64,000 nt of DNA from Modestobacter caceresii (GTDB taxonomy: Bacteria > Actinomycetota > Actinomycetes > Mycobacteriales > Geodermatophilaceae). The stretch is taken from positions 116,116 to 180,115 of the forward strand of contig NZ_JPMX01000077.1 of assembly GCF_000761485.1 (NCBI RefSeq), in the 5' to 3' direction. A program made the position numbers and the translations under genes. Shown in pieces: positions 41,250 through 45,722 of the stretch. Below the pieces are notes generated by a model. The model had not been told where the DNA came from. It was given only the letters and a program-made list of their open reading frames with translations, and ran no database searches. The first letter of the stretch is position 1; each line of letters opens with the position of its first letter.

Positions 41250-41648
41250 TCAGGGGGCGAACGCGCCGTCGCTGATGGAGGCGAGCACCCAGATGTAGGC
41301 CACCAGCCCGATGACCATGAAGGTCGTGACGATGCCGCCGACGATCACGGCGACCACCGCCAGGCCGCCGCCTCTCTCGCCGGTCCGCCGGACCTGCCGG
41401 CCGGCCACCAGGCCGAGCACCAGGCCGACCGGGGCGAACACGAAGGCGGTGAACAGGGCCACGATCGCGAGCTGGTTGGTCGGCCGCTGCCAGCCGGGGC
41501 CGTAGGCAGTGCGGCCGTACCCGGGAGGGCCGTACCCCGGAGGCCCGTACGCGGGCGGTCCGGGAGGTCCGTACGCGCGGGGTCCGTACCCCGGCGGGGC
41601 GCCGTACGACGGCGGCGGGTCCCCGCGGTAGAAGTCGTCCTGGCTCAC
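41250..41648 (-). CDS. DUF4190 membrane protein with Pro/Gly/Tyr-rich N-terminus
   Basis: A 132-residue protein. The first ~55 residues are built of GPPGYGPP/GPPAYGPP-type units and are probably disordered and cytoplasmic. Two membrane helices follow (LAIVALFTAFVFAPVGLVLGLVAG and LAVVAVIVGGIVTTFMVIGLVAYIWV), with the charged turn RQVRRTGERGG between, the DUF4190 pattern. No function is established; such tails often mediate protein-protein contacts. GTG 41648 starts directly at SQDDFYRG. Confidence 0.82.
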   Translation of the reverse strand: MSQDDFYRGDPPPSYGAPPGYGPRAYGPPGPPAYGPPGYGPPGYGRTAYGPGWQRPTNQLAIVALFTAFVFAPVGLVLGLVAGRQVRRTGERGGGLAVVAVIVGGIVTTFMVIGLVAYIWVLASISDGAFAP

Positions 41649-43795: not shown

Positions 43796-44734
43796 ATGAG
43801 AGCTGCAGGAGTGACGGAGTTCGGTGGTCCGGAGGCCCTGCGCCTGGTCGACGTCCCCCGGGAGCCGCTGGGCCCGGGGCAGGTGCGCGTGCGGGTGATG
43901 GCGGCGGCGGTCAACCCGACCGACACCTACAGCCGCAACGGCACCTACGCCCAGCGTGACCCGGTCAAGGAGCCCCCCTACGTGCCGGGGATGGACGTCG
44001 CCGGGGTGCTTGCCGAGATCGGGGAGGGCGCCGACACCGACATCCACGTCGGTGAGCACGTGATGGGCATCGTCGTCCCGACCGGTGCGCACGGCGGCTA
44101 CCGCGAGGACGTCGTGCTGCCCGCCGGCTCCATCGCCCGCGTCCCCGAGGGCGTCGGCCACGCCGCGGCGGCCACGCTGCCGATGAACGGCCTCACCGCC
44201 CGGCTCGCCCTGGACCGGATGTCTCTGCAGCCGGGACAGGTGCTCGCGGTGACCGGCGCGGCCGGGGCCTTCGGCGGCTACGTCGTCCAGCTGGCCAAGA
44301 CCGAGGGGCTGACCGTGGTGGCCGACGCCAAGCCCGAGGACGAGCAGCTGGTGCGCGACCTGGGTGCCGACGTCGTCGTCCGGCGGGGGGATGACGTCGC
44401 CGACCGGATCCGCGAGCAGTTCCCCGACGGCGTCGACGGGCTGGCCGACGGCTCGGTGCAGGACGCCGCCGTGCTGCCCGCGGTCAAGGACGGCGGGGCC
44501 GTCGCGACCGTCCGTGGCTACCGCGGCGACGGGCAGCGCGACCTGCGGGTCTTCCCGGTGATGGTCCGCGACTACGCCGAGGAGCACGCCAAGCTGGACC
44601 GGCTGCGCGAGCAGGTGGAGAACGGCGAGATCACCCTCCGGGTGGCGCACACCTTCCCGGCGGCGAAGGCCGCGGAGGCCCACCGCCGGCTCGAGGCCGG
44701 CGGCGTGCGGGGACGTCTGGTCCTCACCTTCTGA
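43796..44734 (+). CDS. NADPH:quinone oxidoreductase family protein (zinc-independent MDR)
   Basis: A 312-residue medium-chain reductase. The N-terminal GroES-like domain starts MRAAGVTEFGGPEALRLVDVP and contains GMDVAGVLAEIGEGA; the Rossmann part has GQVLAVTGAAGAFGGYVVQLAKTEGL as cofactor loop. Zinc-binding cysteines of alcohol dehydrogenases are missing, as in quinone reductases. The electron acceptor is unknown. It ends 19 bases before the serine-repeat gene, so both may be on one transcript. Confidence 0.9.
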   Translation: MRAAGVTEFGGPEALRLVDVPREPLGPGQVRVRVMAAAVNPTDTYSRNGTYAQRDPVKEPPYVPGMDVAGVLAEIGEGADTDIHVGEHVMGIVVPTGAHGGYREDVVLPAGSIARVPEGVGHAAAATLPMNGLTARLALDRMSLQPGQVLAVTGAAGAFGGYVVQLAKTEGLTVVADAKPEDEQLVRDLGADVVVRRGDDVADRIREQFPDGVDGLADGSVQDAAVLPAVKDGGAVATVRGYRGDGQRDLRVFPVMVRDYAEEHAKLDRLREQVENGEITLRVAHTFPAAKAAEAHRRLEAGGVRGRLVLTF

Positions 44735-44753
44735 CCGCGATAGGAAGGCCCGC

Positions 44754-45062
44754 ATGAGACGCAGGCGCTCGTGGGGCTCGCTCTGGTCGAAGGGCTCGGT
44801 GCTGTCGATCGGCTCGACCGGGTCGGTGCTGTCCATCGGCAGCGTCGGCTCGGTGCTGTCGATCGGCAGCATCGGCTCGTCCTGCTCGCTGTTCAGCATC
44901 GGGTCGAGCACGTCGATCGGGTCGGCGGCGTCCTGGCTGTCGATCGGGTCGGTGCTGTCGGCGGAGTCCCGGTGGTCGGTGCTGTCCTGGCGGTCGGTGA
45001 GGTCCTGGCGGTCGGCGGGGGAGTGCGCCGGGGAGTGCGACTGTTGCGGGTCGGCCGCCTGA
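44754..45062 (+). CDS. Serine-periodic repeat protein (Ser at every third residue)
   Basis: A 102-residue protein of unknown function. Serine stands at positions 6, 9, 12 and so on to 87: 28 consecutive triplets x-x-Ser without a break, arranged in nine-residue units such as GSVLSIGST and GSVLSIGSV. The tail (residues 88-102) has four cysteines (C91, C95, C97, C98). GGAAGG lies seven bases before the ATG. The serines use both TCN and AGC codons, which share no bases at the first two positions, so the period is kept at protein level. I recall similar SVLSIGS proteins in actinobacteria, all uncharacterised. A beta-solenoid or other three-fold fold is plausible. It abuts the convergent AlkD gene. 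Confidence 0.8.
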   Translation: MRRRRSWGSLWSKGSVLSIGSTGSVLSIGSVGSVLSIGSIGSSCSLFSIGSSTSIGSAASWLSIGSVLSAESRWSVLSWRSVRSWRSAGECAGECDCCGSAA

Positions 45063-45722
45063 TCAGCCCAGGTGCTTGGCCGCCTCCCGGCGGGAGAGCG
45101 GGCTGAGCTCGTGCTCGGCCAGGAACCGGCGCACCCAGTCGGGGTCGGTCTTGGTGTGCTCGCGCAGCGCCCAGCCGATCGCCTTGCGGACGAAGAACTC
45201 CGGGTCGGCGGCGTTGACCTCGATCACCTCGGCGAGCAGCGCGGTGTCGGTGCGCTCCTTGGCGCCGAGCTGGGCGATGACCGCGCTGCGCCGCAGCCAC
45301 CGGTCCGGGTCGCGCGCCCAGCCCTGCAGCACCGGCCGCAGCCGCGCCGGGTGGGCGAGCAGCAGATCGCGGACCCGGGGCTGGACCCCGTCGACCAGGT
45401 CCCACCACGCGCCGGTGGTGATCATCTCCTCGTACAGCGGCAGCAGCTCCAGGGCGCCGCGGGCGACGGGCAGGCCGGTGAGCGCGATGGCGGCATGGCG
45501 CTCCTCCCGGACGGTCGCCTCCCGCCACAGCTGACCGGCGGCCCGTTCGACGTCCGGTGGGTGCGTCTGCGCGGCGGCCCGGACGATCCGGCGGACCTCG
45601 GGCAGCCGCACCCCGAGGCAGGGTTGCGCCGTCTTCAGGTAGGCCTGCATGCCGCGGCCCCGCTCGGGGTCGGCCGCCGCCCGCAGCGCGGCGCGCACCT
45701 CGGCGACCAGGTCAGCGGCCAT
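45063..45722 (-). CDS. DNA alkylation repair protein, AlkD-like
   Basis: A 219-residue all-helical protein of the AlkD/AlkC HEAT-like family. Typical parts are MQAYLKTAQPCLGVRLPEVRRIVRAA, LLPLYEEMITTGAWWDLVDGVQPRVRDLL, WARDPDRWLRRSAVIAQLG and the C-terminal EFFVRKAIGWALREHTKTDPDWVRRFL. AlkD excises positively charged alkylated bases. The WWDLVD and RKAIGWALRE motifs, which carry the catalytic Asp/Arg region, are kept. Its stop is immediately next to the stop of the convergent serine-repeat gene. Confidence 0.92.
   Translation of the reverse strand: MAADLVAEVRAALRAAADPERGRGMQAYLKTAQPCLGVRLPEVRRIVRAAAQTHPPDVERAAGQLWREATVREERHAAIALTGLPVARGALELLPLYEEMITTGAWWDLVDGVQPRVRDLLLAHPARLRPVLQGWARDPDRWLRRSAVIAQLGAKERTDTALLAEVIEVNAADPEFFVRKAIGWALREHTKTDPDWVRRFLAEHELSPLSRREAAKHLG

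Follow-up and report, generated by a model that had tools for sequence, protein, structure and literature searches.

The RTX nonapeptide follows the motif GGxGxDxUx. In the account given in PMC6891781, such nine-residue repeats build a parallel beta-roll with calcium turns, and as far as that account goes, this is the nearest known design of nine-residue length to the protein family described here. Both are built of nine-residue tandem units with Gly at the turns and, as proposed for the window family, a hydrophobic strand of short length. However, the window protein (the window being the whole 64-kb stretch of DNA that was analysed) has about 100 residues, carries a Ser lattice and is without calcium-binding Asp; its sole Asp lies in a Cys tail, so the Asp-nonapeptide of RTX is absent and membership fails.

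Two further repeat systems resemble the family in part. The SRRP adhesins of Gram-positive bacteria have Ser-rich repeats, as outlined in PMC6973325, and so does the window family, but SRRPs are cell-surface, exported and O-glycosylated, whereas the window protein has ~100 residues and no export signal visible by eye. TvgA is a TVGG repeat peptide whose Val residues, according to the relevant part of PMC9062424, become cyclopropylglycine; it is likewise a short peptide of repeats in which Val and Gly keep constant positions. Unlike TvgA, the window family has a different motif and a hydrophobic tail in most relatives, and no radical-SAM protein occurred among the 20 neighbours tested.

The His-Xaa-Ser proteins (HxsA) are also small repeat proteins with Ser at every third residue, whereas the window family has Leu/Ile/Gly at set positions within a nine-residue superperiod. 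Against the NCBIfam model NF038313 (HxsA4) the window protein scored 16.2 bits for a cut-off of 55, and it contains no His, which in HxsA comes first in the triplet. HxsB (TIGR03978) gave no match in the window's genome (0/1), in a search in which 14 control genomes were also without a match over the cut-off and which had no positive control. On these grounds an identity as an HxsA RiPP precursor was rejected, and searching the window's genome with NF038313 returned nothing at E 0.001. Among the relatives, 14/52 matched HisXaaSer_A4 at E of 0.001 or below (best 2.1e-6; E values alone, no bit scores); any relative above the HxsA4 cut-off would carry the HxsA4 name in NCBI annotation. The HxsA4 model also matched Corynebacterium glutamicum below its cut-off, and this species, which would be convenient for laboratory work, may carry a member.

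A Pfam scan of 52 members gave no match at E 0.001. Of these relatives, two matched phrog_36982 (no function; E down to 2.2e-5), and one matched gly_rich_SclB at 4.5e-4, which was taken as composition. In the open-licence papers searched, the strings GSVLSIGS and SIGSVGS were absent, SILSIGS appeared in an unrelated physics paper only, and a search by topic gave apparently nothing on the family. The protein is best read as a small, usually stand-alone member of an actinobacterial family that had not been described before.

The serine lattice and its gene

The array gene at 44754..45062 (+) translates as MRRRRSWGSLWSKGSVLSIGSTGSVLSIGSVGSVLSIGSIGSSCSLFSIGSSTSIGSAASWLSIGSVLSAESRWSVLSWRSVRSWRSAGECAGECDCCGSAA. 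The features of the locus (strand in brackets) are:

43796..44734 (+): zinc-dehydrogenase/quinone-reductase-like gene (Pfam ADH_N, ADH_zinc_N, ADH_zinc_N_2)
44741..44746 (+): TAGGAA, degenerate -10-like counterpart at -13..-8, one base further upstream than the family box (by eye)
44754..45062 (+): x-x-Ser array protein, 102 residues plus stop (ORF translation, family conservation)
44754..44768 (+): short basic N-terminal stretch, MRRRR (residues 1-5)
44769..45014 (+): Ser lattice, residues 6-87
45024..45047 (+): Cys tail CAGECDCC, replacing the hydrophobic tail of most relatives
45063..45722 (-): DNA alkylation repair gene (PF08713), convergent, its stop codon abutting the array gene, regarded as a mere neighbour

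The sequence-only reading had described 28 unbroken x-x-Ser triplets in a 102-residue protein, four Cys in its tail and a gap of 19 bases behind a quinone reductase gene (43796-44734). All of this was borne out: lattice positions 6, 9, ... 87 hold Ser in 28/28 cases, and the four Cys are residues 91, 95, 97 and 98 of a 13-residue tail. In order, the lattice consists of an N-cap (SWGSLWSKGS), nonapeptide units (SVLSIGSxG) and a W-rich C-cap (SWLSIGSVLS...SRWSVLSWRS). The longest run in 100,000 shuffles of the window protein's residues was 11, against 28 observed. When the 64-kb window was read in six frames, the longest one-residue runs of period 3 after this one were 13 (V, T, D) and then 9 (R); the 13-long runs have coordinates inside the same 44754-45062 stretch in other frames, and the R run lies elsewhere. 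Tandem Repeats Finder reported a 27-base (nine-codon) tandem array at 44787-44879.

The lattice serines are encoded by 20 TCG, 5 TCC and 3 AGC codons (n = 28). Both TCN and AGC were thus present, as had been claimed, but the wording that they alternate was too strong for 3 AGC in 28. Read by eye in the long minus-strand frame, TCG gives Glu, TCC Asp and AGC Leu, in agreement with the earlier remark that such swaps turn Asp/Glu into Leu on that strand.

Coding status and selection

At least 96 relatives were found in named genomes and 80 were kept, giving a core set of 81 sequences with the window protein; 78 of these match the core pattern and 69 have cores of equal length (71 codons). In pairwise comparison of the 69, 83.5% of single-base codon differences were synonymous in the plus frame, versus 5.5-39.5% in the other five frames, the next best being the minus-strand frame at 39.5%. 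This agrees with the proposal that selection acts on the plus-strand protein for its Ser period, and a check of the homologues for stops found the plus frame open in 69/69 cores. Differences at codon positions 1, 2 and 3 numbered 22391, 10509 and 64626, in pairwise counts that include related sequences many times. Both TCN and AGY codons occurred in several Ser columns. Core columns 33 and 54 (counted from 0) were mostly AGY (63 and 66 of 69) and the others mostly TCN, so the repeats are old and have seen no recent copying or homogenisation. Several G, L and W columns were almost as invariant as Ser. Purifying selection keeps a Ser lattice made of nonapeptides between caps across the family, with lengths usually changing by nine.

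The stretch at 44754-45062 is almost certainly a real, conserved protein-coding gene. The opposing reading, a DNA repeat that lies open by chance, can point to the 27-base tandem repeat and to a minus-strand frame that is likewise open in 68/69 cores, but it has to contend with the synonymous excess of the plus frame, with TCN and AGY sharing the same Ser column, with a -10-like box at constant distance from the start (described below) and with repeats that are not homogenised. It is already refuted as far as sequence allows, and we give it next to no probability. An antisense gene in the minus frame was rejected on its 39.5% synonymous changes.

Constraint between the closest relatives of the window looks weak. 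Against L003, dN was 0.014 and dS 0.036 (3/6 changed codons non-synonymous), and against the L004 core, dN was 0.051 and dS 0.080 (8/12 non-synonymous). A Modestobacter relative at the same locus, L098 (match 1501-1602), retains 11 triplets, and by eye ~45 residues (five nonapeptides) are missing in frame from its array relative to L004. The local clade may therefore be relaxing or losing the gene.

Nonapeptide units, caps and tails

In the family alignment the N-cap reads S-L-W-S-x-D/G-S, the units S-phi-L-S-I/V-G-S-phi-G and the C-cap G-S-W-L-S-x-G-S-x-L-S-A-x-S-R-W-S-V-L-S-W-R. The window protein belongs to this family, its Ser lattice lying between SLWSxDS and SRWSVLSW caps. Core lengths of 71, 62, 53 and 44 residues, in steps of nine, were found in 69, 6, 2 and 1 of 78 members, respectively. 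The cap-to-cap distance was a multiple of nine in 116/131 assigned proteins (3 of 134 were unassigned), which identifies S-phi-L-S-I-G-S-phi-G as the unit and confirms the nine-residue organisation already read from the window; the remaining 15/131, not multiples of nine, include members with caps built differently.

Among 482 selected units, position 3 was L in 94%, position 6 G in 92% and position 9 G in 95%, under a filter that forced Ser at 1/4/7, G/A at 6, G/A/Y/D/N/S at 9 and a listed set at 3. Positions 2, 5 and 8 alone were free of the filter. Position 5 was I/V in 91% of units and never charged, and most of the few charges fell at position 8 (3.5%). Ser filled 3247/3266 lattice places within called arrays, partly by construction since the array caller penalises other residues. 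In L085 (1417-1824), extra GSSRSR repeats lie near the N-cap and the lattice reaches 33 triplets (32 Ser).

A hydrophobic tail (best 17-residue hydropathy of at least 1.6) was present in 90/130 relatives. Tails shorter than 17 residues occurred in 15/130, and eight tails, including that of the window protein, carried two or more Cys. The window protein is without the hydrophobic C-terminal segment that is common, though not universal, in the family. The tail, unit, cap-distance and hydropathy counts leave out L033 and L078 (duplicate, or without a clear start); L100, L101, L124, L135 and L137 (doubtful/GSV-type simple repeats, mis-picked frame or frame change); L099 (no run of 8); and L110, L143-L146 and L148 (duplicates). 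Three members from the window's order (L123, L129, L132) have, in place of the hydrophobic tail, an acidic stretch followed by a terminal CHCQT or RHCQT, and this ending is a second, distinct Cys or His-Cys type. In L136 (386-898, -), an x-x-Ser array follows an apparent N-terminal hydrophobic segment; its start codon is uncertain and it has no Pfam match.

Upstream signal and neighbouring genes

A YANNNT hexamer beginning at -12 of the start codon (-12..-7) was present in 66/79 upstream regions, compared with at most 4 of 79 at any other scanned offset. The 79 regions come from the 81 sequences, two of which had no clear start, and starts were chosen regardless of the box. Conservation falls off strongly upstream of about -16. 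In mycobacteria, according to the part of PMC4633059 concerned, either a -10 hexamer or a Shine-Dalgarno sequence, not both, marks leaderless versus leadered genes. The hexamer lies where a -10 box would be needed if transcription starts at the A of ATG, from which we infer a leaderless mRNA with its own promoter. This interpretation has to accommodate a first base that is C in 72% of boxes, unusual for a -10 box, a G at -6 in 78%, and the relatedness of the sequences. The TAGGAA of the window is without the final T of YANNNT and is overlapped by a Shine-Dalgarno-like AGGAAGG (44742-44748); given this overlap and the 19-base gap, co-transcription with the upstream gene is possible at the window.

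The close quinone reductase proved to be a feature of one clade. Across 149 loci it was confined to the window's clade and L099, so its adjacency fails as a family feature and a family-wide partnership was rejected. A reductase of 77-100% identity lies directly upstream in L001/L110 (the window itself), L003/L083, L004/L084, L078/L085, L098 and L099, each pair being the same contig. Distant reductase homologues (29-34% identity) occur at the Streptomyces-type loci L005, L022, L034, L047 and L104. That of L022 (34%; 151 bases upstream, same strand) was taken as a chance neighbour, such genes being abundant in those genomes. The other Modestobacter copies (among L086-L096) had no reductase within ~3.2 kb. 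The combination of reductase, DNA alkylation repair and TPP-enzyme neighbours was seen in the window's clade only, while L099 retains reductase and TPP enzyme. At L099, which belongs to a different genus of the family, this reductase is followed (~1500-1630) by a short open remnant-like array, ATIGSALSMGSVGSWLSVGS..., and the locus may thus predate the Modestobacter clade.

No neighbour cluster beyond the gene and its antisense frame spanned more than 5 of 80 loci, in calls from a simple GC3 script that can miss genes. Twenty neighbours from 13 loci included a thioester-domain protein, ABC ATPases, a zinc dehydrogenase, a GDSL lipase, a beta-lactamase-fold protein, a DNA methyltransferase and others, with no shared theme. 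An operon or partner gene assigned by neighbourhood was rejected accordingly. Elsewhere in the window, short repeats of 15, 24 and 39 bases occur in tandem at 41513-41597, with an abundance of GGAGGCCCGTACCC-like units.

Structure and proposed explanation

AlphaFold2 gave a mean pLDDT of 47.0 and a pTM of 0.16 for the window protein (50 sequences), and 58.4 and 0.33 for L138 (52 sequences), whose array stood at ~40-47. Over the array, block pLDDT was ~40-56 in both members and what is drawn is helix; the sole confident part of the L138 model was its tail helix (block pLDDT 90-96). The beta-helix or aligned Ser face suggested by the sequence-only reading therefore has no support from these models. 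Predictions often fail for low-complexity repeats with shallow alignments, so the low pLDDT may still allow a beta-helix. A search of solved structures matched chains of kinesin light chain 1 (E 0.0006-0.003) and three further entries with E up to 0.08, over 27-39 residues; being weak and short, perhaps through a Gly/Ser-rich linker, these were rejected as homologues.

In three members the hydrophobic moment peaked at 120 degrees (0.84-1.22) and was 0.11-0.13 at the alpha-helix angle of 100. This moment, together with the capped ends, the steps of nine and the fixed L3, I5, G6 and G9, favours a stacked structure with a nine-residue repeat, which we judge to fall just short of an even chance. 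The arrays are also rich in V/I/L/A, with a median longest uncharged stretch of 58 residues. The best 19-residue mean hydropathy of the array had a median of 1.5, reached at least 1.6 in 38/130 and was 1.47 in the window protein, and array mean hydropathy was below ~1.15 in the rows examined (window and later loci of the 130).

We tentatively propose a membrane-tethered, self-stacking nonapeptide scaffold, a statement that as a whole we consider possible and less than probable. Within each nonapeptide, phi-L-S-I would be a single short beta strand, its L3 and I5 pointing inwards and its S4 outwards, and G-S-phi-G-S would make a single Gly-Ser turn. The units would stack into a compact solenoid or beta-roll in which the serines align as hydroxyl ladders, a fold resembling the RTX calcium beta-roll with Ser-Gly turns replacing calcium. 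The rod would be cytoplasmic, and the hydrophobic tail would tether it to the membrane in most species, a part of the proposal that we regard as moderately probable. In the window's clade, which has a Cys-rich tail, that tail might act as the tether instead. The rod would self-assemble into a membrane-associated scaffold or patch, with no conserved partner gene involved.

A scaffold role is suggested because partner genes and obvious catalytic residues are lacking and no export signal is discernible by eye. It is weakened by AlphaFold2, which does not fold the array and draws helix, by the missing Pfam match and weak solved-structure matches, by the 15/131 cap distances off nine and by the weak selection among the closest relatives. 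If the rod or filament were true, it would be a new metal-free repeat fold. A bolder version, in which the protein is a very tight metal-free solenoid of nine residues per coil or half coil, with three Ser hydroxyl ladders, forming a membrane-bound filament in many actinobacteria, is distinctly improbable. Were it true, the family would supply a cytoskeleton-like or membrane-domain scaffold; annotation would have overlooked it on account of its short length, low complexity and often leaderless expression.

Several other explanations bear on the same data. The array could be embedded in the membrane rather than tethered to it, the uncharged V/I/L/G/S/A stretch lying in the bilayer of an oligomeric membrane protein with Ser satisfying backbone or neighbour contacts. 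The long uncharged stretch and the borderline membrane-like hydropathy allow for this, as do the hydrophobic tail of most members and the low-confidence helices in both models. Against it, a period of 3.0 and units of nine misfit an alpha helix, as the low moment at 100 degrees indicates, Ser makes up one third of the residues, and both the array mean and the best 19-residue value of the window protein are modest for such a role; we regard it as rather unlikely. A little less likely still is a low-complexity protein that is intrinsically disordered or forms condensates and has no defined solenoid. The very low pLDDT over the array and the variable length and tails would fit, but position-specific constraint, aromatic caps at both ends and nine-residue steps are unusual for disorder. 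The composition is also far more hydrophobic than that of a typical disordered linker.

The array could instead present sites for modification: either actinobacterial kinases would phosphorylate its Ser residues, or an enzyme from an unlinked gene would alter Val/Ile/Ser in RiPP-like fashion. Regular x-x-S spacing, the 14/52 matches to HisXaaSer_A4 and the precedent of cyclopropylglycine in the TVGG repeat peptide, as presented in PMC9062424, speak for a substrate, and a true case would add one more repeat substrate. We nevertheless find it improbable: the window protein reaches 16.2 of 55 bits and lacks His, HxsB was not found in the one genome searched without a positive control, a radical-SAM Pfam match occurred in 0/20 neighbours (three of which match nothing), no neighbour of any kind recurs, and near-constant G, L and W columns are needless for mere sites. 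Very improbable is a protein that binds ice or surfaces, or is secreted as an adhesive, by way of an aligned Ser face, although the sequence-only reading had allowed for ice or surface binding. Known solenoid antifreezes do have aligned polar positions in their repeats, but known ice-binding faces use Thr rather than Ser. No signal-peptide-like N-terminus was seen by eye in the window protein, which argues against a secreted role of this kind, and most relatives begin with a short polar or basic stretch followed directly by the array. The tethered scaffold is our preferred, still tentative reading.

Distribution across actinobacteria

The search for homologues proposed earlier returned many relatives. 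Relatives among the matches listed were mostly from Streptomyces, and also from Kitasatospora, Yinghuangia, Actinacidiphila, Modestobacter, Rhodococcus, Hoyosella and Micrococcales MAGs. The window's genome has one good copy, a second match being at E 0.13. Matches were found in 12 of 23 listed genomes of the same genus, the Modestobacter protein L003 being 98% identical to that of the window, and in 19/112 genomes of the window's family at E 0.001, two of these being doubtful (G043, with only the odd repeat L100, and G035, with the remnant-like L099). Class-wide, 88/393 genomes matched at E 1e-6, some with stops or very short matches and the weakest uninspected. Phylum-wide, 24/396 matched at 1e-10, among them L137, a simple GSV repeat, and L135, which changes frame. 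These genome counts may be low, as the initial scoring covers part of the candidates in many genomes.

The family is widespread, with matches in 40/121 sampled Streptomyces genomes, though Pfam matches none of its 52 scanned members. A different class of the phylum also contributed matches (19/197 genomes), and the members read from it (L138-L142, L147, L149) have S-I-L-S-I-G-S-A-G units and in several cases a hydrophobic tail. That a strict three-residue lattice persists in two or more actinobacterial classes poses a clear structural puzzle. Plasmids, phages and viral contigs gave no match, and an origin from a mobile element or phage was rejected for this reason. Overall, this appears to be a large, patchily distributed actinobacterial family. 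In a tree built from few columns, with long branches and bootstrap not settled, and with L044 left out because it runs off its contig, the window grouped with the Modestobacter sequences L003, L004, L098 and L085 (98/94).
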